From an uncultured Ruminococcus sp. (GTDB lineage: Bacteria; Bacillota; Clostridia; Oscillospirales; Acutalibacteraceae): a DNA stretch of 62,945 bases. The notes under the pieces were generated by a model. That model saw nothing but the letters and a program-made list of their open reading frames with translations. It had not been told where the DNA came from and did not search any database. Within the stretch, counting starts at the first letter, position 1. Each line of letters opens with the position of its first letter. Location of the stretch: contig CACYPV010000007.1 of assembly GCA_902776375.1 (NCBI GenBank), positions 1 to 62,945 on the forward strand, in the 5' to 3' direction. The translations under genes were made by a program, and so were the position numbers. Shown here in pieces: positions 101 to 27,138 of this stretch.

Positions 101-733
101 TTATTCGTTCAGGTGCACGCTCCAGCCCGTATCGACCTTCTCGTGTACCTTACTCAGTGTTTCCTCGTCCAGCTCAGGCCAGTCGACCACGGTACGGGCT
201 TTATTTTTTACCAGGTGCGCTTTTTCGGCGCACAGGGCGATCGGCGTGTCGGCAAGCGAGTCGGAATAAAAGTTGTCGATCATCGGAAAGCCGTGGTCGA
301 TAATATACTGCGCCTTTTCCTGCGCGTACATCAGATTGTGCAGAAACACCCCGTATTTGCGGTTGAACTCCGTCGCCATAAAGTTTACACCGAGCCTTTT
401 GGCGATAGGTTCGATGATACAGTCGGGCGACGCGCTGATTATCAGATCGTCGGATTTCTTTTGTGCCAGATACCAATGAGCTATTTTTTTCTCGTTTTTA
501 TCCCAATAACGCTCGATCTGTTCATCAAAATCATCTATCAGCGTCAGATAGCAGAAAAACTCACGCTGCATCAGATATTCGGGTATTTTACCCAGCTTGC
601 GCAAAATCAGGTTTTTTACTAATTTCGGAGTGAAAGTGAACCACAGCTTAGGATGCCGTTTCAAACACCAGGTAAAAAAACCTATCGAACAATCAGTAGG
701 GAAGATAGTTCCGTCAAAATCATATACATTCAT
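101..733 (-). CDS. HAD-superfamily (SerB-like, IB) phosphatase
   Basis: A 210-residue cytoplasmic protein of the haloacid dehalogenase family. Motif I is DFDGT at residues 6-10, where the first Asp is the phospho-acceptor nucleophile. Motif II is the Ser in LIISASPD (about 98-105), and the acidic motif IV is in NFYSDSLADTP (about 153-163), including the DxxAD pattern. The layout matches HAD-IB enzymes that hydrolyse small phosphate esters such as phosphoserine; the substrate cannot be read from sequence. It is the last gene of a four-gene minus-strand operon, 15 bp after the MATE-ATPase gene. Its role beside a partner-switching module is unclear; it may simply share the promoter. Confidence 0.85.
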   Translation of the reverse strand: MNVYDFDGTIFPTDCSIGFFTWCLKRHPKLWFTFTPKLVKNLILRKLGKIPEYLMQREFFCYLTLIDDFDEQIERYWDKNEKKIAHWYLAQKKSDDLIISASPDCIIEPIAKRLGVNFMATEFNRKYGVFLHNLMYAQEKAQYIIDHGFPMIDNFYSDSLADTPIALCAEKAHLVKNKARTVVDWPELDEETLSKVHEKVDTGWSVHLNE

Positions 734-748
734 TTAGTTTCCTCTTTT

Positions 749-2461
749 TTATGTGCGCGAAAAGCGTATCACATTTCGATTGTATCCTGTAGTTACGAGA
801 TATGCTTTTTCATCGTGCGCTTCCATCAGTCCGCTGAGCGTAAATCCGCTCAGACCCTTGATTTGATTATCGGGGTCAGTCAGGTCAAACAATTTTCCCG
901 AATCGCGTTCTATGATAACCACTTTATCGGCTTCGTAGAAAATAGAAAGCTCTATTAACAACGGCTTCTTTGCCTGCTTGTTGCTTTCGAGGATCGTCAG
1001 TCCGATCTCCTCTGTAAACAGCGCCGCGCGGTTGACGATCTCTTTAGGATACTGATGCGAAGCCAAGCTGCCTGCGACTTGCCTTGAAAGTTCAGTCGCG
1101 GATTCGGGAGTCAGGGTGTCTTCCATAACGATTATTTCGGAATCCATATCGTTGAGCAAAAACGGGAAATTATCTTTGCCAAACCGCAGATATACAAAGA
1201 GCATGGCGCAAATAAGCGTCAGTATCGGAGCCGCGATAAAGCCTGCCCACATACCGTTTATTCCAAAAATCAGTGAACCCGCTATGGGCAGCAGAATGTA
1301 TAATAAACCGTTCTGAAAACACGCTATGCAGGTCGCCATAGCTATGCGGTCGATCAGCATATAGTAAGAAGTCGTCAGCGACACCGTACTGCAGAATATG
1401 AACCCGAGCGAAACGATACGAATGGCGGGTATCGCTGAGGACAGCGCGGCTTCGTCGGTGACTCCGAACATGCCGCAGAACTGCCTTGCGAAAATCCAGA
1501 TGAGAACGGTCGCGGCGGCGCCTTCTATTACGGCGGCTTTTATACCTGATTTCATAACTCTTTTTATAAGCTTATGATTCTTTTCTCCGAAGTAGGTGCC
1601 TATAAGGGGCTGCATCGCCATTCCGACGCCGTCCATAACAACGCCGAACTCAATAAGACTGACGACCACTGCCAGCGTAACCAAACCCTGATTGCCGTAG
1701 TTGCGCGAAACAAATCCTATCATCACAAAGTCCATCAGTCCCCAGCAGATATATACGGAAGAATCCACTATGCTGTACCTCGACGTCAGCAAAAAGTCCT
1801 TGAACGACAGGTGCCATACAAAGTGCAGCGTGTTTTTCTTTCTGAAAAAGTGCCAGAGGCATGTGAGTATACCAAGGCTGTTACCGATCACAGAACCAAG
1901 TATAATACCGGTCATTCCCAGGTATTTGGTCAGTATGACAGAGCAAATGATGTTTCCGCCGATCTGAAAACCGTAACAGATATTATTGCACAGCTCGTCT
2001 CCGTCGCTGTATACCATCTGTTCAAGATAGAAAATAACAATAGTCAAAAACGCGTTGATCGGAACAAAACGATAGTATTGGAGCGCTTTATCCAGAATAT
2101 CTCCCGTAACGCCGCTCATGCTGAAATACGCGTTTTGCAATAAAATGATCAAAAGCGCGGACAGCAGTCCGATACCGATGCTTATGATAAGCCCCTGTCC
2201 GTAAATCTCGTCAGCCCGGCGCTTCTTCATCGCGCCGACCTCACGCGTAAAAACGATACCGACGCCGGTCGAAACCAGATCACCGAAAAAGGTGATAATA
2301 GCGGTAACAGGGGTGATAGCGTTGATCCCCGCGACTCCCGATTCACCTATGAAAAAACCTGCGATTATGCTGTCGCTGAGCAACATCAAATACATGACCG
2401 CCTTGGTGAACGTGCCGGATATCAACATGGATGTAAATTTCTTTTCGCAAAATCCATTCAT
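749..2461 (-). CDS. MATE-family transporter fused to a C-terminal RsbW-like ATPase domain
   Basis: A 570-residue protein. Residues about 1-440 form a 12-helix MATE exporter (for example SDSIIAGFFIGESGVAGINA near the N-terminus), a family that exports organic cations or drugs using ion gradients. Residues about 450-570 are not part of normal MATE proteins (about 450 residues). They resemble the HATPase_c_2 fold of anti-sigma kinases such as RsbW/SpoIIAB, with TEEIGLTILESN in the N-box position, ERDSG in the G1 position and a closing GFTLSGLM segment. In RsbW-type kinases the N-box is ExxxN; here the Asn position is Thr, so kinase activity may be reduced or lost. It lies 15 bp after a SpoIIE phosphatase, and an STAS gene starts the operon. 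The inference is a membrane-tethered switch partner. The ATPase-fold call is a pattern match by eye. Confidence 0.8.
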   Translation of the reverse strand: MNGFCEKKFTSMLISGTFTKAVMYLMLLSDSIIAGFFIGESGVAGINAITPVTAIITFFGDLVSTGVGIVFTREVGAMKKRRADEIYGQGLIISIGIGLLSALLIILLQNAYFSMSGVTGDILDKALQYYRFVPINAFLTIVIFYLEQMVYSDGDELCNNICYGFQIGGNIICSVILTKYLGMTGIILGSVIGNSLGILTCLWHFFRKKNTLHFVWHLSFKDFLLTSRYSIVDSSVYICWGLMDFVMIGFVSRNYGNQGLVTLAVVVSLIEFGVVMDGVGMAMQPLIGTYFGEKNHKLIKRVMKSGIKAAVIEGAAATVLIWIFARQFCGMFGVTDEAALSSAIPAIRIVSLGFIFCSTVSLTTSYYMLIDRIAMATCIACFQNGLLYILLPIAGSLIFGINGMWAGFIAAPILTLICAMLFVYLRFGKDNFPFLLNDMDSEIIVMEDTLTPESATELSRQVAGSLASHQYPKEIVNRAALFTEEIGLTILESNKQAKKPLLIELSIFYEADKVVIIERDSGKLFDLTDPDNQIKGLSGFTLSGLMEAHDEKAYLVTTGYNRNVIRFSRT

Positions 2462-2476
2462 AATAAGTCTTTCTGT

Positions 2477-3985
2477 TTAGGAAATACCGTTGTATTTCAA
2501 TCCTACCATCGTCAGATCGTCAAACTGAGGCGCTTCTTTTACAAAAGCGTCGACAGCAAAGCGGACGCCATCCAGTATCTCCTTCTGTGAAGCGCCCTCG
2601 GGAATAGCGTTGAGCGCGTCAATAGTGCGGTCTGTACCGAAAAGCTGGTTATTCGCGTCGGTTGCCTCGGCAACGCCGTCGGTATATACGAATATGCTGT
2701 CGCCCTTCTTTAGTTGGAGCTCGGTATCGCTGTACTTAGACATTCCAAACGCGCCGAGAGCCAGACCGTGTTTATCTTTAAGCAACTCATATTTACCGTT
2801 GACATTGATGATCGGGTATTCGTGACCGGCGCTCGCGGTGGTGAGCTTGCCTGTGCTGATCTCGAGGATACCCAACCATACGGTCACAAACATATGAGCT
2901 TCGTTGTTTTTACATATCTGCTTGTTTACTCTTTCAAGTATTTCAGCGGGAGATCCGCCCATTATTGCATGGTCGTTGATAAGGATCTTCGAGGACATCA
3001 TAAACAGCGCCGCGGGAACGCCCTTGCCCGATACGTCGGCAATTACGATAGCGATGTGATCGTTGTCTGTCATGAAGAAGTCGTAGAAATCTCCGCCGAC
3101 CTCCTTTGCCGGATCCATGCAAGCGTAGATGTCAAACTCCGTTCTGTCCGGAAACGCCGGAAAGATAGAGGGCAGCATACCGCTTTGGATCTCGGTAGCC
3201 ATGTTTAGCTCAGTCTCGGTGGACGCCAGCTTTCGGCTCTTGGCGTTAAAGATCACGCAGTACATCACGATCAGCGACATCAATACGACGCCGTACTGAC
3301 TGGCTTCACCGAATTTGCCGCCGATCAGAATGAATTCTATAAGCGGCAAAATTATAAATGTCAAAGCAGCCGCTTTCTGATTGATCGGATTATGGGACAT
3401 AAATATCAATACGGTCGTGACAACGGACGTCAATATAAGGAAAACTTCCTCGATCAAACCGATTTCCGTTCCCTGATACATCCCTTCGGCAGTTACCGTA
3501 AAGGTGATCGGTGTGATAATATTTAACAGCAAAACGAGCGTTTGAGCCGCCATCAGTATGGGGATGATCTTTTCCGCGGCCCTTGCCGGCCGGCCCTCAA
3601 AGCCGAGCGTTTCTCTTACGTACAGGTAGAACAGGAAGATCATCGCAAGATCGATCAGCTTGCTCAAAAGGCAGAAGGCGAAACAAAGCATGCGGCTGTC
3701 GGGTACGCCCACCGTATAGCAGATTATTTCATTGATGACAAAGCAGGCGCACACCAGAATAATAAGTATCCTAAAGGCTCTTATCCCTTCGCCCTTATGC
3801 ATTATGCATCCGTAATACAGCGCGACGCACACAAGCGCTCCCAATGAATTTATGCCGGAATTATACAAATACGGCATCAGCCTTGCTTCGGTAAAAAAGG
3901 GAGTGCTGAATACGATGATAAAAACGGCAGCCGCTATGTTAAAAGTCAATCCGTAAAATCGGATATCTTTCAATTTTTTTATCAT
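2477..3985 (-). CDS. Membrane-anchored SpoIIE-type (PPM/PP2C) serine phosphatase
   Basis: A 502-residue protein. The first ~245 residues hold about eight hydrophobic segments with short loops. A linker (about 250-270, MATEIQSGMLPSIFP, a form common ahead of RsbU/SpoIIE domains) leads into the phosphatase domain (about 280-500). Metal-binding acidic residues are visible in KEVGGDFYDFF, IADVSGKG, YTDGV and DDLTMVGL. Such enzymes dephosphorylate STAS anti-sigma antagonists, and an STAS gene lies just upstream in the operon. The membrane part may sense an envelope or small-molecule signal. The start ATG at 3985 has AAGGAG just upstream. Confidence 0.9.
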   Translation of the reverse strand: MIKKLKDIRFYGLTFNIAAAVFIIVFSTPFFTEARLMPYLYNSGINSLGALVCVALYYGCIMHKGEGIRAFRILIILVCACFVINEIICYTVGVPDSRMLCFAFCLLSKLIDLAMIFLFYLYVRETLGFEGRPARAAEKIIPILMAAQTLVLLLNIITPITFTVTAEGMYQGTEIGLIEEVFLILTSVVTTVLIFMSHNPINQKAAALTFIILPLIEFILIGGKFGEASQYGVVLMSLIVMYCVIFNAKSRKLASTETELNMATEIQSGMLPSIFPAFPDRTEFDIYACMDPAKEVGGDFYDFFMTDNDHIAIVIADVSGKGVPAALFMMSSKILINDHAIMGGSPAEILERVNKQICKNNEAHMFVTVWLGILEISTGKLTTASAGHEYPIINVNGKYELLKDKHGLALGAFGMSKYSDTELQLKKGDSIFVYTDGVAEATDANNQLFGTDRTIDALNAIPEGASQKEILDGVRFAVDAFVKEAPQFDDLTMVGLKYNGIS

Positions 3986-4046
3986 ATATTCTCTCCTTAT
4001 ATCGCTGCCTCACCGTCATGATCAAACGGTAAAGGACACGACGACA

Positions 4047-4403
4047 TTATTCGATGTTGAACAGACGAGCGAATCCGGTCAGCTCAAAGACCTCACGCAC
4101 GGGCGCGGTGAGATTGCGAATGATCATCTCTCCTTTGTTTTCCATGACTTGATATGTGCCGAGCAGAACGCGCAATCCCGCGCTGGAGATGTATTCCAGA
4201 TCGGAAAAATCAAATATCAATGTTTTTGCGTCATCGATCACTTCTTTGATTTTGCTGTCAAGACCGGGGGAGGTCATAGTGTCAAGTCTGCCTCCCAACA
4301 GGAACGTGTATTGAGCTCCGTCCTTTGATACAGAGATTTTCAGTTGGCTGTTGCCGCTTGAACTTGAGGCGGAATCCTTGTTCTTTTTGTTGAATAAACC
4401 CAT
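4047..4403 (-). CDS. STAS-domain anti-sigma factor antagonist (SpoIIAA/RsbV-like)
   Basis: A 118-residue cytoplasmic protein starting at the ATG at 4403, which has a perfect AGGAGGA at 4410-4416; a longer reading from 4475 lacks such a site. After a charged, serine-rich N-terminal tail (MGLFNKKNKD, then about ten Ser-rich residues), residues about 25-118 form an STAS domain. DFSDLEYISSAGLRVLLG carries the Ser-Ser pair that is the usual phosphorylation site in this family. It is the first gene of the operon with the SpoIIE phosphatase and MATE-ATPase fusion, so the substrate, the phosphatase and a kinase-like fold are encoded together. No sigma factor is adjacent. Confidence 0.92.
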   Translation of the reverse strand: MGLFNKKNKDSASSSSGNSQLKISVSKDGAQYTFLLGGRLDTMTSPGLDSKIKEVIDDAKTLIFDFSDLEYISSAGLRVLLGTYQVMENKGEMIIRNLTAPVREVFELTGFARLFNIE

Positions 4404-4645: not shown

Positions 4646-5110
4646 TTATGCTTTTGTACTTTCGGTTGAGTCGGTTGATTTAGCGCTGTCGCCTTTGCTG
4701 CGTGTTTTCAACGAGGCGTGTTCCTCGGCGCATTGCACCTTCTTTTCGGCAACCGCGCCGGTTAGGGCGTTGATTTTGACTGAATAATACTTGTCGCCGG
4801 AGGTGAAGCTGACCTTGTAAACTACAGTGCCGTCATCGAGCTTTGTGACGCGCGCCTTGACTTTTTCAGCTTTGTCCTCGGTAATGCCCGCTTCCTTCAA
4901 GGCTGCGGCTTTCGCCTTGTCCTTGCCGATGGCGTTCTCGGGTTCGGCAACCTTTTCTTTCTTGCCCTTTTCGCATTTTTTTGTATTGCCTGTTGACGAT
5001 TCAACAGCCGCCTGATCGTTGTTTGTTGTCGCCGCGGAAGCGGATGTCGCAAAAGCGGAGACAGTTAATATTGCCGCAAGCGAGGCGGCGAGAATTAGTT
5101 TGTGTTTCAT
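4646..5110 (-). CDS. Secreted PepSY-domain protein
   Basis: A 154-residue protein starting at the ATG at 5110 (GAAAGGAAGG upstream). It has a classic signal peptide ending near SASA (about residue 26), a lysine-rich linker, a PepSY domain (about 58-125, containing KAAALKEAGI and YYSVKINALTGAV) and a Ser/Thr/Lys-rich tail. PepSY domains occur in peptidase propeptides and wall-associated proteins and often act as inhibitory or chaperone-like modules; no catalytic domain is present here. It is monocistronic with its own terminator. The exact role is unknown. Confidence 0.85.
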   Translation of the reverse strand: MKHKLILAASLAAILTVSAFATSASAATTNNDQAAVESSTGNTKKCEKGKKEKVAEPENAIGKDKAKAAALKEAGITEDKAEKVKARVTKLDDGTVVYKVSFTSGDKYYSVKINALTGAVAEKKVQCAEEHASLKTRSKGDSAKSTDSTESTKA

Positions 5111-10730: not shown

Positions 10731-12026
10731 TTAAATACAAAATGCGGCGTAAAGAGGAACCGTCTTTTTATTATCCTCAAAGCCAAAGTTTTTGGCGGAG
10801 AGCTTGATTGCATAAGCGGGTTGGTAGGCGTCCATATAGACCTTTAAGCTCTTGGCTTTGGTGTTGTCGGCGGATTTAACCTCGATCGGGATGATTTGCC
10901 CGTCGCGCTGAATGACAAAATCAATTTCAGCCGCACGGCCGGACTCCCAATAGTAGGTGCGGTAGCCGTTGCAGGTGAGCTGTACATTGACATAGTTTTC
11001 CGCCATACCGCCCTTGAAATCATTTAGTTCCTCAACCATATACAGAATATCGTTGGGAGCTAAATCCTTTTTAGCGCAAAGCAGTCCCAAATCCGATACA
11101 TAAATTTTAAAAGCGTCAATGTCCCGGAAGTTTTCAAGCGGCTTTTTGACCTGCTCGACCTTATAAACCTGCGACACGATACCGGACAGGCAAAGCCATT
11201 CGATTGCATTTTCAAATTCAGACGCTCGCCCGCCTTTTTTGATCAGCTTATACTGAAAACGGGTATTCTTTTTCGAGAGCTGAACGGTGATATTATCATA
11301 AGCGAGCCGGGTTTTCTTGATCTCGTTAAGATTGTTATACTTGCTCATATCATTGAGATAGCTTGCGAGGATAGTGTCCTGCGTATGGCGGACAAGAATA
11401 TAGTCCTTTGTCTGAGCGAATTGCATTACGCACTCCGGCATACCGCCGACAACAAGATACTGACGATAGAGCTGCATTGCGGTGTCGTGTAAGGCTGACG
11501 GCAGCGGCGTATCAGTTTTGAAACATTTTTTGATCCGTTCCACCAAATCGTCCTCGCCGAGCGCCAGCATAAATTCTTCCATATCCATCGGATAAAGCGT
11601 TTTCATATCGACCTTTCCGACAGGAAAGGAGAATTTTGCTCTGTTGACCGCAACGCCGAGCAGACTGCCTGCGACAATGATATGATAATCCGGCGCGTCC
11701 TCGCAAAAGTATTTGAGAGAAGTCAGCGCTCTTTCGCATAGCTGAACCTCGTCGAATACGATCAGCGTTTTTTCTCTTACGATCGTTTGACCGGCAATAT
11801 GCGACAAAATCGGGATCAGATAATCCGGGCTGATGTTCTCTTTAAAGGTTTCGTTCAACTTGGGATTTGTTTCAAAGTTGAAGTATGCAACATTTTCATA
11901 ATGGGTGCGCCCGAATTCCAGAACGGAATACGTCTTTCCCACCTGCCTTGCACCTTGTAAAATAAGCGGCTTGCGGTGCTCGCTTTCCTTCCACGCCTGC
12001 AAAAAGGCTGTAATCTTTCTATACAT
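10731..12026 (-). CDS. AAA-family ATPase with C-terminal DUF4143
   Basis: A 431-residue protein starting at the ATG at 12026 (AGGAGGGG upstream). The Walker A is GARQVGKTY (about 25-33), the Walker B is LIVFDEVQLCERAL (about 89-102), the arrangement of AAA_14 ATPases. The C-terminal DUF4143 domain (about 210-400) ends in the nuclease-like segment GRAAEIDFVIQRDGQIIPIEVKSA, reminiscent of the E/D-xK core of Holliday-junction-resolvase folds. The family is widespread in gut Firmicutes and Bacteroidetes, often many copies per genome. Its role is unproven. Confidence 0.9.
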   Translation of the reverse strand: MYRKITAFLQAWKESEHRKPLILQGARQVGKTYSVLEFGRTHYENVAYFNFETNPKLNETFKENISPDYLIPILSHIAGQTIVREKTLIVFDEVQLCERALTSLKYFCEDAPDYHIIVAGSLLGVAVNRAKFSFPVGKVDMKTLYPMDMEEFMLALGEDDLVERIKKCFKTDTPLPSALHDTAMQLYRQYLVVGGMPECVMQFAQTKDYILVRHTQDTILASYLNDMSKYNNLNEIKKTRLAYDNITVQLSKKNTRFQYKLIKKGGRASEFENAIEWLCLSGIVSQVYKVEQVKKPLENFRDIDAFKIYVSDLGLLCAKKDLAPNDILYMVEELNDFKGGMAENYVNVQLTCNGYRTYYWESGRAAEIDFVIQRDGQIIPIEVKSADNTKAKSLKVYMDAYQPAYAIKLSAKNFGFEDNKKTVPLYAAFCI

Positions 12027-22589: not shown

Positions 22590-22835
22590 ATGACAATACA
22601 GATATGCGTTGGCTCGTCGTGCCATCTCAAGGGCTCGGAACAGATAGTCGAATTGTTTCAAAAGGCTATTGAGGAACGCGATCTGGCGGATAAGATCACT
22701 CTTGCGGGCAGCTTCTGTATCGGACGCTGCAACCGCGAGGGTGTTACCGTTCAGGTGGACGACGATATTATTACAGGCGTTAAGCCGGAAACCTTTGACA
22801 GGTTTTTGGAAACCGAAATCTTACCTAAACTCTAG
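22590..22835 (+). CDS. Thioredoxin-like [2Fe-2S] ferredoxin, second copy
   Basis: An 81-residue paralogue of the previous gene, three bases after it. The Cys pattern is CVGSSCHLKG and FCIGRCNREG. Shared features (GSSCH, LKGS-EQIVE versus VKGSRQVVE) point to a tandem duplication followed by divergence. Two separate small clusters next to a sensor-type hydrogenase suggest dedicated electron carriers, perhaps one for each hydrogenase; this is inference. Confidence 0.9.
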   Translation: MTIQICVGSSCHLKGSEQIVELFQKAIEERDLADKITLAGSFCIGRCNREGVTVQVDDDIITGVKPETFDRFLETEILPKL

Positions 22836-22852
22836 TGAAAGTGAGCGTACAG

Positions 22853-24529
22853 ATGTCGAACTGTTTGACATTAAAAAAATCAAATTGCAAAAACTGTTAT
22901 AAATGTATTCGTCACTGCCCGGTAAAGTCCATACGCTTCTCCGGAAATCAGGCGCATATTATCGGCAACGAGTGCATCCTTTGCGGTCACTGCTTTGTGG
23001 TGTGTCCGCAAAACGCCAAGCAAATCGTAGATGACACCGAAAAAGTACGCGTTCTGCTGCAAAGCGGAGCTCCCGTGGTCGTCAGTCTGGCGCCGTCCTT
23101 TATCGCCAATTATGCCGGCGTGGGTATCGAATCAATGCGCGCCGCTCTTAAGAAGCTCGGCTTTTACGACGTTGAAGAAACCGCTGTCGGCGCGACGATC
23201 GTCAAGCGTGAATACGATCGTATTTTACAGGATGAGCACAGGGATATCGTTATTTCCTCCTGCTGCCATTCCGTGAATCTGTTGATCCAAAAGTATTTTC
23301 CAAGCTGTTTGCCGTATCTGGCTGATGTTTTGTCGCCTATGCAGGCGCACTGCACGGACATCAAAAAGCGTATCCCCGATGCAAAAACCGTGTTTATCGG
23401 TCCCTGTGTCGCAAAAAAGGACGAAGCGAATCATTACGAAGGCATTGTTGACGCCACGCTGACCTTTGAGGAGCTGTCCGCGTGGTTGAAGGAGGAAAAC
23501 ATTACCCCCGAACAAAAAACCGACAGCACAGACAAAAGCCTTGCGCGGTTTTTCCCGACTACCGGCGGTATCCTCAAAACGATGTCGCAAGCGGCGCAGG
23601 ATTACACCTACTTTGCGATCGACGGCGTAGAAAACTGCATAGCCGCCCTGAAAGACGTCGAGGACGGCAAGGTGCACAAGTGCTTTATTGAAATGAGCGC
23701 CTGCGCGGGAAGCTGCATCGGCGGCCCCGTTATGGAAAAGCACCGCCTGAACCCCGTCAGCGATTACGCTGCCGTTGCCGGATACGCGGGCAAGAGCGAT
23801 TTTGAGGTAGAGCAGCCCGAAGCGGTCGAGATAAAGAAAATGTTTGAATATATCCCACAGCGCTCGGCAAAGCCTTCCGATTTTGAGATCAACCAGATCT
23901 TGCGGCAAATGGGTAAATTCAAGCCTTCGCAAGAGCTCAACTGCGGCTCCTGCGGCTACGATACCTGCCGCGAAAAGGCGGTCGCCATTTATCAGGGCAA
24001 GGCTGAGATATCCATGTGTCTGCCGTTCTTGAAGGACAAAGCGGAAAGCTTCTCGGATACGATAGTTAAAAACACGCCCAACGGCTTGATCGTCGTGAAC
24101 GATCTGCTGGAGGTGCAGCAAATCAATTCCGCCGCGCTGAAAATATTGAATCTGCGCGCCGCATCGGATGTAATGGGTACACAGGTAGTGCGTATCCTCG
24201 ATCCGCTGCCGTTTTTGAATGTGCAGTCTACCCATCGCGGCATTTACAATGAACGTACATTTTTAGCCGAGTACGACCGCTATGTGGAAATGACGGTCGT
24301 CCCCGACAAAGAGAGCAATATGCTTATCTGCATAATGACAGACGTCACCGAGGAGGAGACCGCACGCCGCCGCAAGGAGGATATCAGCCGCCAGACGGTG
24401 GAGGTCGCCGACAAGGTGGTCGATAAGCAAATGCGTATCGTGCAGGAGATTGCTTCGCTTCTGGGCGAAACTGCCGCCGAAACCAAAATTGCACTGTCAA
24501 AGTTGAAGGAGTCGATCAAGGATGAATGA
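22853..24529 (+). CDS. Sensor-type [FeFe] hydrogenase with PAS domain (HydS-like)
   Basis: A 558-residue protein (ATG at 22853 assumed; a GTG at 22835 overlaps the preceding stop). Order of parts: two [4Fe-4S] motifs (CKNCYKCIRHCP and CILCGHCFVVCP, about 14-60); an H-cluster domain (about 75-350); a further Fe-S domain (CGSCGYDTC, about 368-376); a PAS domain (about 398-500); and a short C-terminal helix. The H-cluster motifs deviate from catalytic enzymes: L1 is SSCCHS instead of TSCCP, L2 is FIGPCVAKKDE, and L3 is EMSACAGSCIGG. This is the pattern of group C putative H2-sensing enzymes, of which one has been described in Ruminococcus albus. The adjacent SpoIIE phosphatase is the probable output. 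Confidence 0.88.
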   Translation: MSNCLTLKKSNCKNCYKCIRHCPVKSIRFSGNQAHIIGNECILCGHCFVVCPQNAKQIVDDTEKVRVLLQSGAPVVVSLAPSFIANYAGVGIESMRAALKKLGFYDVEETAVGATIVKREYDRILQDEHRDIVISSCCHSVNLLIQKYFPSCLPYLADVLSPMQAHCTDIKKRIPDAKTVFIGPCVAKKDEANHYEGIVDATLTFEELSAWLKEENITPEQKTDSTDKSLARFFPTTGGILKTMSQAAQDYTYFAIDGVENCIAALKDVEDGKVHKCFIEMSACAGSCIGGPVMEKHRLNPVSDYAAVAGYAGKSDFEVEQPEAVEIKKMFEYIPQRSAKPSDFEINQILRQMGKFKPSQELNCGSCGYDTCREKAVAIYQGKAEISMCLPFLKDKAESFSDTIVKNTPNGLIVVNDLLEVQQINSAALKILNLRAASDVMGTQVVRILDPLPFLNVQSTHRGIYNERTFLAEYDRYVEMTVVPDKESNMLICIMTDVTEEETARRRKEDISRQTVEVADKVVDKQMRIVQEIASLLGETAAETKIALSKLKESIKDE

Positions 24530-25694
24530 TTTATGCGCTGAAATCGGCTACAAAAGCATCAACCATGACGGCGAGCAGCTTTGCGGAGACCATATCGATA
24601 TCGTAGAGCAGAGCAACGATTCCACCGTTATCGTGCTGGCGGACGGTATGGGCAGCGGCGTAAAGGCGAGTATTTTGTCCACGCTCACCTCTAAGATCAT
24701 TTCAACCATGATGGCGGCAGACTTGCCCTTGGAGGAATGTGTGTCTACCATTGCCGCGACGCTCCCAGTGTGTTCGGTGCGCGGCGTTGCGTACTCCACC
24801 TTTACCATTATGCACCTCATCAACTCCCGCACCATCGAGCTGATCCAGTATGACAATCCTCACATTATTTATATCCGCGGCGGCGCTCTTTACGATTACG
24901 CCAAAACCGAGGTCAATATTGGCGGAAAAAAGATTTACAAGTCCGTTATCCGCTTAAAGGAGGATGACATCATCATCGCCATGAGCGACGGTTGTCCTCA
25001 CGCGGGTATCGGTATCGCGTATAACTTCGGCTGGAAATGGGAGGATATCGCAGAATACATGCTCAGTATGTCGGAAGGCGGTTTCACGGCCAAGGTGCTT
25101 TCCACCATGCTGATCGATGAGGTCGACCGGCTCTACGGCGGCAAACCCGGCGACGACGCGACCGCCTGCGTTATCAAGATCCGCAAGCGCGTACCCATGA
25201 ACATTCTTTTCGGTCCCCCTGCCGACAGGGATGACTGCGACCGCATGATGAGTTTGTTCTTCTCTAAGGAGGGCAAGCATATCATCTGCGGCGGAACAAC
25301 TTCTTCCATTGCCGCAAAGTGGCTGCGTAAGCCGCTCAGACCTAAGCTTGACTTTGAGCGCAGCGATGTGCCGCCGATCGCGGAGCTGGAAGGCGTCGAT
25401 TTGGTGACCGAGGGCGTCATCACCGTCAACAAGGTGGTGGAATACGCCAACGACTATATCAAAAACAACGATTCCTATGAGGAATGGGGCTACAGTAACG
25501 ACGGCGCTTCGCTCATCAGCCGACTTTTGTTTGAGGAAGCGACGGACATAAATTTCTATGTAGGCAAGGCTGTCAACCCGGCACATCAAAATCCCGATCT
25601 GCCGATAAATTTCAACATCAAAATGAATTTGGTGCAGGAGCTTTCAAAGGCGCTCAAGCTTATGGGCAAACGCATCAAGGTCAGTTATTTTTAG
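24522..25694 (+). CDS. Soluble SpoIIE-type (PP2C) serine phosphatase
   Basis: A 390-residue cytoplasmic protein. Residues about 1-230 form the PPM/PP2C domain, with metal-binding Asp in LADGMGSGVKAS (about 40-51), AMSDGCPHAG (about 153-162) and PGDDATACV (about 209-217). Residues about 230-390 are an additional domain with no family recognised by eye (it includes IICGGTTSSIAAKWL). Its start overlaps the stop of the sensor hydrogenase by 8 bp, so the two are translated together. The plausible reading is that H2 or redox sensing changes phosphatase activity on an unknown phosphoprotein. Confidence 0.9.
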   Translation: MNDLCAEIGYKSINHDGEQLCGDHIDIVEQSNDSTVIVLADGMGSGVKASILSTLTSKIISTMMAADLPLEECVSTIAATLPVCSVRGVAYSTFTIMHLINSRTIELIQYDNPHIIYIRGGALYDYAKTEVNIGGKKIYKSVIRLKEDDIIIAMSDGCPHAGIGIAYNFGWKWEDIAEYMLSMSEGGFTAKVLSTMLIDEVDRLYGGKPGDDATACVIKIRKRVPMNILFGPPADRDDCDRMMSLFFSKEGKHIICGGTTSSIAAKWLRKPLRPKLDFERSDVPPIAELEGVDLVTEGVITVNKVVEYANDYIKNNDSYEEWGYSNDGASLISRLLFEEATDINFYVGKAVNPAHQNPDLPINFNIKMNLVQELSKALKLMGKRIKVSYF

Positions 25695-25704
25695 GTGAAT
25701 GCAA

Positions 25705-27138
25705 ATGAATAAGCTAAGAAAATTTGATACCAAGGTGCAGTATCTTAAATACAAGGTGCTGCGCGAGGTGGCGCGTCAGGCGTGGAATGATACGCTGTTG
25801 GAGAACGTACTGGATATCCCAAAGATCATTGTTCCCGGCAAAACTCCGACCATGCGCTGCTGCGTATATAAAGAAAGGGCGATCCTTGCCGAGCGCGTCA
25901 AAATCGCCATGGGCGGCAATTCCGACCGCCAAAATGTTATTGAAGTGATCGACATCGCCTGTGACGAATGTCCAGCTGCCGGTTACGAGGTCACAGATTC
26001 CTGCCGCGGTTGTCTGGCGCACCGCTGCGAGGACGTTTGCAAGCGCGGCGCTATCTACTTTGACCACAACCATGTGGCGCATATCGATAAAAGCAAATGC
26101 GTTGAATGCGGTCAGTGCGCCAAGGTGTGCCCGTATTCCGCTATCGCCAACCGCAAGCGTCCCTGTCAGAACGCCTGCAAAATCAGCGCGATCAGCATCA
26201 ATGAAGATAAGGCGGCACAGATCGACGATTCAAAGTGTATTTCGTGCGGCGCCTGTGTTTATCAGTGCCCGTTCGGCGCTATCAGCGACAAATCCTTCAT
26301 TTTGAATGTCATCGATATGCTGAAAAAATGCGAACAGGGTAAGAATTATAAGATCTACGCTGTTGTTGCGCCGTCTATCTCCAGCCAGTTCACTTACGCA
26401 AAACTCGGTCAGGTGATAACCGGTCTAAAGGAGCTTGGCTTCCATACTGTCGTAGAAGCCGCTCTCGGTGCGGATATGGTGGCGCAGGCAGAATCAAAGG
26501 AGCTTGCGGAAACAGGCTTTTTGACCAGCTCCTGCTGTCCTGCCTTTGTTGAGTACATCAACAAATCCTTCCCTGAGCTTAAACCGAATGTCTCCCACAA
26601 TCTTTCGCCGATGGCTACGATCGCCAAGTATATCAAGGATACAACGCCTAATGCGAAAATCGTTTTCATCGGACCGTGCACGGCTAAAAAGATGGAGGTC
26701 CAGCTTGATACCGTCAAGCCCTATGTCGATTCCGTGCTGACCTTCGAGGAATTACAGGCGCTGTTTGACAGCCGTGATATCGACCTCACATCGCTGGAGG
26801 AAGGCGTGCTTGACAACGCTTCCTACTTTGGCAGAATATTCGCCCGCTGCGGCGGACTTGCCGACGCGGTCGCCGAAGGCCTGAAGGAGCAGGGGCTCGA
26901 TGATTTTGAGCTGAATGCGATTTCCTGCGACGGCATTGAGGAATGTAAAAAAGCGCTGACGCTGAAAAGCAAAAATGTTTTGAAAGCGAACTTCATCGAA
27001 GGTATGGCGTGCGTCGGCGGCTGTATCGGCGGCGCAGGCTGCCTGACCCACGGCGCAAAGGACAAAATGCAGGTCGATAAATACGGACAGGAAGCAATGG
27101 AAAAATCCATCCTCGACGCAATTTCGATCCTGAAATAA
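25705..27138 (+). CDS. [FeFe] hydrogenase, catalytic type (HydA2-like)
   Basis: A 477-residue enzyme (ATG at 25705; another ATG lies two codons upstream). It reversibly makes H2 from protons, using ferredoxin. An N-terminal region with a Cys cluster (CDECPAAG, DSCRGCLAHRCEDVC) and two further [4Fe-4S] motifs (CVECGQCAKVCP, CISCGACVYQCP) lies at about 90-200. The H-cluster domain is about 210-475: L1 is SSCCPAFVEY, L2 is FIGPCTAKKMEV and L3 is EGMACVGGCIGG. L1 and L3 retain all cluster Cys. The type resembles group B monomeric enzymes. It is the last gene of the rex operon. Confidence 0.92.
   Translation: MNKLRKFDTKVQYLKYKVLREVARQAWNDTLLENVLDIPKIIVPGKTPTMRCCVYKERAILAERVKIAMGGNSDRQNVIEVIDIACDECPAAGYEVTDSCRGCLAHRCEDVCKRGAIYFDHNHVAHIDKSKCVECGQCAKVCPYSAIANRKRPCQNACKISAISINEDKAAQIDDSKCISCGACVYQCPFGAISDKSFILNVIDMLKKCEQGKNYKIYAVVAPSISSQFTYAKLGQVITGLKELGFHTVVEAALGADMVAQAESKELAETGFLTSSCCPAFVEYINKSFPELKPNVSHNLSPMATIAKYIKDTTPNAKIVFIGPCTAKKMEVQLDTVKPYVDSVLTFEELQALFDSRDIDLTSLEEGVLDNASYFGRIFARCGGLADAVAEGLKEQGLDDFELNAISCDGIEECKKALTLKSKNVLKANFIEGMACVGGCIGGAGCLTHGAKDKMQVDKYGQEAMEKSILDAISILK

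Follow-up and report, generated by a model that had tools for sequence, protein, structure and literature searches.

A putative partner switch with a MATE transporter as its output in an uncultured Ruminococcus

SpoIIAA-SpoIIAB-SpoIIE and RsbV-RsbW-RsbU are partner switches of Bacillus, and in kinases of the RsbW/SpoIIAB type the asparagine of the N-box is a ligand of Mg-ATP. In the SiaABCD system of Pseudomonas aeruginosa, a PP2C phosphatase and a kinase set the phosphorylation state of the STAS-like protein SiaC, which acts on SiaD (available parts of PMC7647112 and PMC8457831). The STAS protein MlaB binds the transporter ATPase MlaF and is needed for its stability (PMC7367683, in its available part), STAS switches are predicted to act on cyclic di-GMP enzymes and chemoreceptors (PMC9239204, likewise), and several STAS proteins act, according to the accessible text of a review, on targets other than the canonical one that are not yet identified (PMC8256260). 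The DNA examined here, called the window below, is a complete contig (C7) of 62,945 nucleotides from the 2.6 Mb, 76-contig genome of an uncultured Ruminococcus sp. It carries a minus-strand operon encoding a STAS protein, a SpoIIE-type phosphatase and a MATE transporter that ends in a degenerate RsbW-like domain. We think it somewhat probable that this operon is a partner switch with the transporter as its output, in which the degenerate domain would be the dock through which the STAS protein, we infer, would gate transport.

The operon and its parts, in window coordinates, are as follows.

4047..4403, minus strand: gene of the STAS (anti-sigma-antagonist-like) protein, 118 amino acids from its ATG; PF01740 at E 6.4e-16, TIGR00377 above cut-off
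2477..3985, minus strand: gene of the SpoIIE-type PP2C phosphatase, 502 amino acids; PF07228 at E 1.7e-44
749..2461, minus strand: gene of the MATE transporter with the degenerate RsbW-like domain, 570 amino acids; PF01554 at E 3.2e-24
752..1138, minus strand: the C-terminal RsbW/SpoIIAB-like domain, proposed STAS dock, residues ~442-570 (~129), from the structure model, its PDB matches and conservation
995..997, minus strand: codon of Thr489, at the position of the N-box Asn, from alignment with SpoIIAB and from a 78-sequence alignment
101..733, minus strand: gene of a HAD-IB family hydrolase, a conserved companion, 210 amino acids, from a profile match and synteny

Transcription would run from STAS through SpoIIE and the MATE fusion to HAD-IB, with gaps of 61, 15 and 15 bp. 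The original prediction had described the first three of these genes, with a multi-helix SpoIIE, a long MATE C-terminus and gaps of 15 and 61 bp; the gaps are correct, and Pfam matches together with a hydropathy scan, which places about eight membrane segments N-terminal to the phosphatase domain, confirm the rest. The predicted phospho-acceptor of the STAS protein is Ser74, within YISSAGLR. This column, presumably the equivalent of SpoIIAA Ser58, is Ser in all 60 STAS domains located at most 5 kb from fusions. In the scan of the operon, promoters showed no surplus (5 found, 7.9 expected), and terminator-like sites numbered 14 against 6.0 expected.

MATE proteins carry in their first helix a conserved acidic residue with a functional role; here it is D30, invariant across 12 aligned fusions. 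The full-length AlphaFold2 (AF2) model of the fusion (pLDDT 86, pTM 0.85) has MATE transporters as its best PDB matches (3wbn, E 5.7e-14; 4z3n is among the matches). When residues 435-570 are modelled by AF2 from 43 sequences (pLDDT 80, pTM 0.75), the topology is strand-helix-helix-strand-strand-helix-strand-strand, and the 17 top PDB matches are anti-sigma kinases of the RsbW/SpoIIAB/UsfX type, led by the RsbV-RsbW complex 6m37 (E 1.3e-7, TM 0.69/0.80). The C-terminus of the MATE protein is thus predicted to fold like RsbW/SpoIIAB, as had been proposed. Relatives bridge the gap in sequence: the fusions L009, L073 and L101, all three that were scanned besides the window's, score above the Pfam thresholds of MatE as well as of HATPase_c_2, the latter with 47.0, 41.8 and 45.7 bits.

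In the window's domain the GG box is reduced to a degenerate GLSGF, which does not fit the GGxG lid motif. To follow the domain through relatives, a scan of genome contigs was used, which confirmed 137 relatives; 80 of them, with 74-94% identity, were kept as orthologues. Their hosts are labelled largely as ruminant-gut Clostridia, some as other groups, and the named ones include Ruminococcus flavefaciens MC2020 (L214) and [Clostridium] aminophilum (L158, L160). Conservation was read from 78 sequences, the window's and those of 77 orthologues (three loci had no called open reading frame, ORF, and were omitted). At residue 489, the N-box Asn position, Thr occurs in 74, Ser in three, Val in one and Asn in none, so that the Thr noted there in the original prediction holds for nearly the whole group. 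Invariant in all 78 are E484, E485, N494, R519, D520, G522 and T557-R562. Pairwise ratios of non-synonymous to synonymous changes (dN/dS) have a median of 0.123 in the domain (from 1113 pairs, with 1886 excluded as saturated) and of 0.069 in the MATE part (from 1506 pairs, with 1493 excluded). Given the low dN/dS and the invariant motifs, the domain is under purifying selection, and the altered N-box site is fixed and selected rather than decaying.

Three trivial accounts of the fusion were rejected. A misassembly or read-through is ruled out by an architecture common to 80 orthologues. A decaying C-terminus is ruled out by the dN/dS of about 0.12 and the invariant motifs, despite MATE-gene remnants in three genus mates (L046:8004-8360, L049:8001-8320 and L249:3112-3222), where the gene keeps only its last 119 residues, has an internal deletion or is down to a few dozen residues. 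The fusion is not confined to its own genome either, as at least 49 of 99 other genomes of the genus have one. Outside the genus such fusions look rare from sequence matches: in a sweep of 299 genomes of the phylum, at least five besides our own showed fusion-length matches extending past residue 500.

The neighbourhoods of the fusions were surveyed in 100 genomes of the genus, our own included. The first 60 of the ranked fusion candidates were taken (58 by frame length; two short ones are remnants), along with 40 MATE matches of plain length as controls, nearly in list order with few skipped; a longer list existed for both classes. Genes were scored in six frames within 5 kb on either side, and 59 of the 60 candidates had a focal MATE frame, 57 of these with a HATPase in the same frame. 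Near these 59 fusions, a STAS gene was found in 47 cases, SpoIIE in 32, a separate kinase in 32 and any of the three in 50; where both flanks are complete, any switch gene is present in 29 of 32 and a separate kinase in 22 of 32. None of the 40 plain MATEs, 16 of them with complete flanks, has a switch gene nearby. Among the 80 orthologues of the window's fusion, the corresponding counts are STAS 22, SpoIIE 22, both 17, kinase 13 and any 31; the separate kinase of L146, for instance, has 143 amino acids. The original prediction had asked whether such fusions always neighbour STAS and SpoIIE genes; the association is strong in the genus (50/59 against 0/40), but 'always' does not stand for the direct orthologues (31/80).

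Density would predict about 0.9 STAS and 0.9 SpoIIE genes in 77 orthologue loci, whereas 15 and 17 were counted with the first ORF caller, which yields lower numbers than six-frame scoring. When all neighbours within 6 kb of the 77 orthologues were clustered without selection, the leading families were FGGY kinase (34), HAD (33), STAS (22) and SpoIIE (17), the next family reaching 10. In the linked orthologue loci, STAS is co-directional with the fusion in 22 of 22 (upstream in 14, downstream in 10, both in two) and SpoIIE in 19 of 22; the position of STAS has been reshuffled, and its presence kept.

All three MATE fusions found in our own genome have STAS and SpoIIE genes near them. The other two lie next to genes of nonribosomal peptide synthetases (NRPS), which are found within 5 kb of 41 of the 59 genus fusions; a large family, often in NRPS clusters, thus comes on top of what had been predicted, as do the separate kinases and a second transporter type treated below. 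NRPS as a necessary partner was ruled out for the window type, as only 4 of 80 orthologue loci have one, and linkage to switch genes holds without NRPS genes, for example in L043-L045. The loci concerned, with some composite STAS proteins, are listed here.

L009:113-8326, own genome: MATE fusion flanked by a reductase-terminated NRPS and a SpoIIE-HATPase protein
L010:13-7445, own genome: MATE fusion between an NRPS-reductase, a triosephosphate isomerase (TIM) homologue, STAS and a SpoIIE-HATPase protein
L147:11756-12997; L168:3304-4479; L185:490-1677; L219:4566-5717: STAS + APH-like proteins

In clusters of the L010 type, the TIM homologue lies inside the NRPS cluster. The STAS + APH-like proteins of MATE-fusion loci are about 400 amino acids long, with STAS at the start and the rest resembling an APH-like phosphotransferase (tested with Pfam for L147).

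Separate kinases and transporter-fused domains were then compared in their motifs, using the HATPases of the own-genome and genus loci (22 standalone, 20 fused to SpoIIE, 61 fused to MATE). All 42 standalone or SpoIIE-fused HATPases keep both the N-box Asn and the lid motif's GG, one SpoIIE-fused member being without the Gly of the DxG motif. The GG is found in none of the 61 MATE-fused domains (in eight through alignment gaps at that place). When the MATE parts are placed on a tree, plain MATEs form one side of a branch with a support of only 61, and Asn is missing from two clades, the window-type one and one with His, and from most of a third (two rows have Asn), with deep joins unsure and branches long. 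As judged from these alignments, the pattern that emerges is an intact kinase accompanied by a degenerate copy attached to the transporter.

A second type of transporter appears to have followed the same path. In L143 an FGGY kinase gene comes after HAD, and its orthologue (88% identity) stands at the start of another contig of our genome, C65; C7 and C65 are probably neighbours parted by a contig break, and comparison of their ends gave no overlap of 11 bases or more. The FGGY gene on C65 is followed by a symporter gene, and related genes and other composite proteins occur in the genus.

L223:1784-3373, own genome, contig C65, after FGGY: SDF (sodium:dicarboxylate) symporter with ~125 extra N-terminal residues, Pfam-tested
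L248-L259, genus mates: SDF symporters with an N-terminal degenerate RsbW-like domain
L251:2842-4149 and L251:4250-5473, beside the SDF fusion: two proteins, methyltransferase-looking by eye, that end in STAS domains
L171:4955-6049 and L176:8820-9908, near orthologues: ABC transporter ATPases with a C-terminal HATPase-like stretch (local profile)

Near full-length relatives of the SDF fusion occur in 13 of 100 genus genomes, ours included. In each of the 13, the N-terminal domain matches the local HATPase profile (E 2.8e-5 to 3.3e-10; 4.3e-6 for our own), and hhalign relates it to the kinases with a probability of 93% (E 2.5e-7). It ends in a G-Y-N strand, as the MATE domain does, and at the N-box position it has Asp in 11, His in one and Asn in one (L253), the Asn being missing in 12 of 13. 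Flanks of about 6 kb were examined at the 12 other loci and at five of nine matches to plain SDF as controls: STAS is near 6 of 12 domain-bearing loci, L251 with its two composite proteins being counted here, against 0 of 5 plain ones, with SpoIIE near three and a kinase near three of the 12. In L249 the order is STAS-SpoIIE-HAD-FGGY-SDF, with a short MATE remnant between SpoIIE and HAD, and in L258 STAS-SpoIIE-kinase adjoins SDF-HAD-FGGY, so that SDF occupies the place of MATE before HAD-FGGY. The STAS genes of MATE loci L143, L144, L146 and L166 and of SDF loci L249, L256, L257 and L258 are all 61-78% identical to the window's. As for the ABC ATPases, that of L176 is encoded directly upstream of a MATE fusion; in Pfam one of the two is below the HATPase_c_2 cut-off and the other has no match to that family.

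From gene order, folds, motif loss, conservation and linkage, as read in sequences and models, we infer the following mechanism. The membrane-bound SpoIIE phosphatase would sense a signal and dephosphorylate the STAS protein. In one of its phosphorylation states, by analogy more likely the dephosphorylated one, STAS would bind the RsbW-like domain at the cytoplasmic end of MATE, and thereby open or close the transporter. The fused domain would no longer be a kinase and would act as a docking copy of one, while a separate intact kinase, alone or fused to SpoIIE, would re-phosphorylate STAS. Given that the window is without a linked kinase, SpoIIAB or one of the two SpoIIE-HATPase proteins would act in trans. 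The same STAS/SpoIIE pair may also control the SDF symporter through its similar N-terminal domain.

Several observations weigh against this reading. The window-type domain is barely recognisable from sequence alone: a comparison of its last 140 residues with HATPase_c_2, the check suggested in the original prediction, did return a match (E 0.048), but at 14.1 bits it falls below the cut-off of 27.4. A profile built from orthologues of the MATE domain only matched no PDB chain, and one with true kinases added did, being biased by those kinases. With hhalign, the window-type MATE domain aligns to the kinases in register at 17% (E 0.0014; 0.3% for a STAS control), and the SDF domain to the MATE orthologue domain at 1.6%. 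No linked kinase was found near the window's genes by six-frame scoring over 5 kb, and PF13581 has ten matches in our genome, the five above cut-off holding no dedicated kinase. The N-box Asn is present in 42 of 61 MATE-fused domains and in 1 of 13 SDF domains, hence not every member need be dead. The Fisher tests that support linkage over plain MATEs (2.5e-19 for the genus fusions, 3.5e-7 for the orthologues) give P values that overstate independence because the loci are related and some near-identical. Among fully flanked orthologues, 13 of 27 are linked and 14 of 27 have no linked STAS, SpoIIE or kinase, so that, with 31 of 80 linked overall, linkage to a switch is not a requirement. All 14 genomes checked do have STAS and SpoIIE matches at other places (13 of these loci being among the 14 unlinked), which is weak comfort as such genomes carry several STAS and SpoIIE genes anyway. 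Finally, the module can be dispensed with, as three genus mates have lost the greater part of the MATE gene.

The question arises as to whether other scenarios account better for these data. The transporter could be the input rather than the output: when MATE or SDF binds or carries its substrate, the docking domain would change and would capture or free STAS, and so pass the signal to whatever STAS controls elsewhere, be it a sigma factor or another of its partners. Transporters do act as sensors, as in BceAB-BceS, and the linkage and the degenerate-kinase pattern also suit a sequestering sensor, as does one STAS family common to two transporter types; moreover, our genome encodes a SpoIIAA-SpoIIAB-sigma set. 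Nevertheless, no sigma factor was found near the operon by phmmer with the genome's own SigF, a single query that divergent sigma factors could escape, which agrees with the original prediction that none is adjacent, and the same search over the genus, plain and orthologue loci gave a sigma-like ORF only at the sporulation locus L011. A membrane sensor is, besides, already supplied by SpoIIE, and the fusions in NRPS clusters suggest controlled export. We therefore consider this scenario rather unlikely.

Less likely still is that the fused domain remains an active, membrane-tethered STAS kinase for which the transporter is merely an anchor or a sensor. The invariance of E484/E485, D520 and G522, the Asn kept in 42 of 61 fused domains and the window's want of another linked kinase would fit, whereas the Asn is found in 0 of 78 window-type sequences, the GG box is missing from 61 of 61 (eight via gaps) and intact separate kinases stand beside 32 of 59 genus fusions, all of which makes it improbable to our eyes. 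That the domain is an appendage for structure or dimerisation, with STAS and SpoIIE nearby for another reason such as control of NRPS or sugar-kinase genes, is very improbable: 14 of 27 fully flanked orthologues are unlinked and the loci often share NRPS or HAD-FGGY genes as neighbours, but plain MATEs are linked in 0 of 40, STAS is near domain-bearing SDF loci (6/12) and not plain ones (0/5), and linkage persists without NRPS genes (L043-L045). The pattern of linkage and motifs thus favours a STAS-gated transporter over these scenarios, gating being what we would deduce from it.

More broadly, it is possible, and we put it forward tentatively, that partner switching serves gut Clostridia generally as a post-translational control of membrane transport, in which unrelated transporters, namely MATE, SDF and probably ABC ATPases, each acquired RsbW-like domains, commonly degenerate in catalysis, that read the phosphorylation state of STAS set by a membrane SpoIIE sensor. 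If so, a phosphate switch studied mainly for transcription may also, in bacteria of the rumen and gut, act directly on transporters to switch them on or off. An exporter and an importer could then be under a single STAS/SpoIIE pair, and such a pair in an NRPS cluster could gate the release of nonribosomal peptides and perhaps set its timing.

Other genes deserve mention. Upstream of the STAS gene, at 4649-5110, lies a gene for a secreted-looking PepSY-domain protein, and a terminator-like hairpin (4638-4605) separates the two. A gene for an AAA_14/DUF4143 ATPase is found on the minus strand at 10734-12026. At 22835-27138, a SpoIIE-type phosphatase gene is flanked by two iron-only hydrogenase-like genes, a group that, we take it, resembles sensory hydrogenase loci. 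A further RsbW-like context in our genome is L012:4817-5395, a HATPase_c_2 protein amid iron-sulfur and hydrogenase-like genes.

How does this operon compare with known systems? Searches of the open-access literature turned up no paper in which a MATE or SDF transporter is controlled by partner switching; subscription papers lay mostly outside their reach. A word search of the main text of PMC8256260, as available, found neither MATE nor efflux, and in that of PMC8241843, on rumen gene clusters including many NRPS, neither 'transporter' nor 'SpoIIE' occurs. PDB entry 4z3n is ClbM, a MATE protein with a role in the colibactin NRPS-polyketide synthase cluster; it is tied to an NRPS product, much as many of the fusions lie in NRPS clusters, whereas no NRPS gene was found within 5 kb in the window's own operon, and ClbM is not known to have an RsbW-like domain.

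MlaB-MlaF is comparable in that a STAS protein binds a transporter component, as would be the case here. MlaB binds an ABC ATPase directly, in the available part of the source, while here an RsbW-like dock is proposed and a phosphatase is encoded alongside. With SiaABCD, the operon would share a STAS-like protein that is under the control of a phosphatase and a kinase and binds a target other than a sigma factor, as gene order suggests here. The SiaABCD target is, in the accessible text, the diguanylate cyclase SiaD, reached via its stalk; ours would be a transporter, reached via a degenerate kinase domain, and no diguanylate cyclase is among the identified genes of the operon, no search aimed at GGDEF domains having been made. 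Non-canonical STAS-domain-only proteins are likewise said to act in one phosphorylation state on a non-canonical target (available text of PMC8256260); here, in contrast, gene order indicates a concrete one. As in the SpoIIA and Rsb switches, there is a STAS protein with its conserved Ser, a SpoIIE phosphatase and a partner of RsbW fold. The difference is that this partner is on a transporter, that its catalytic motifs are lost and that no sigma factor was found near. What would be new here is a partner switch with another sort of output, joined to it through a degenerate kinase domain: the fusion physically joins the target to a copy of the STAS partner, and thereby names a candidate STAS target that can be tested.

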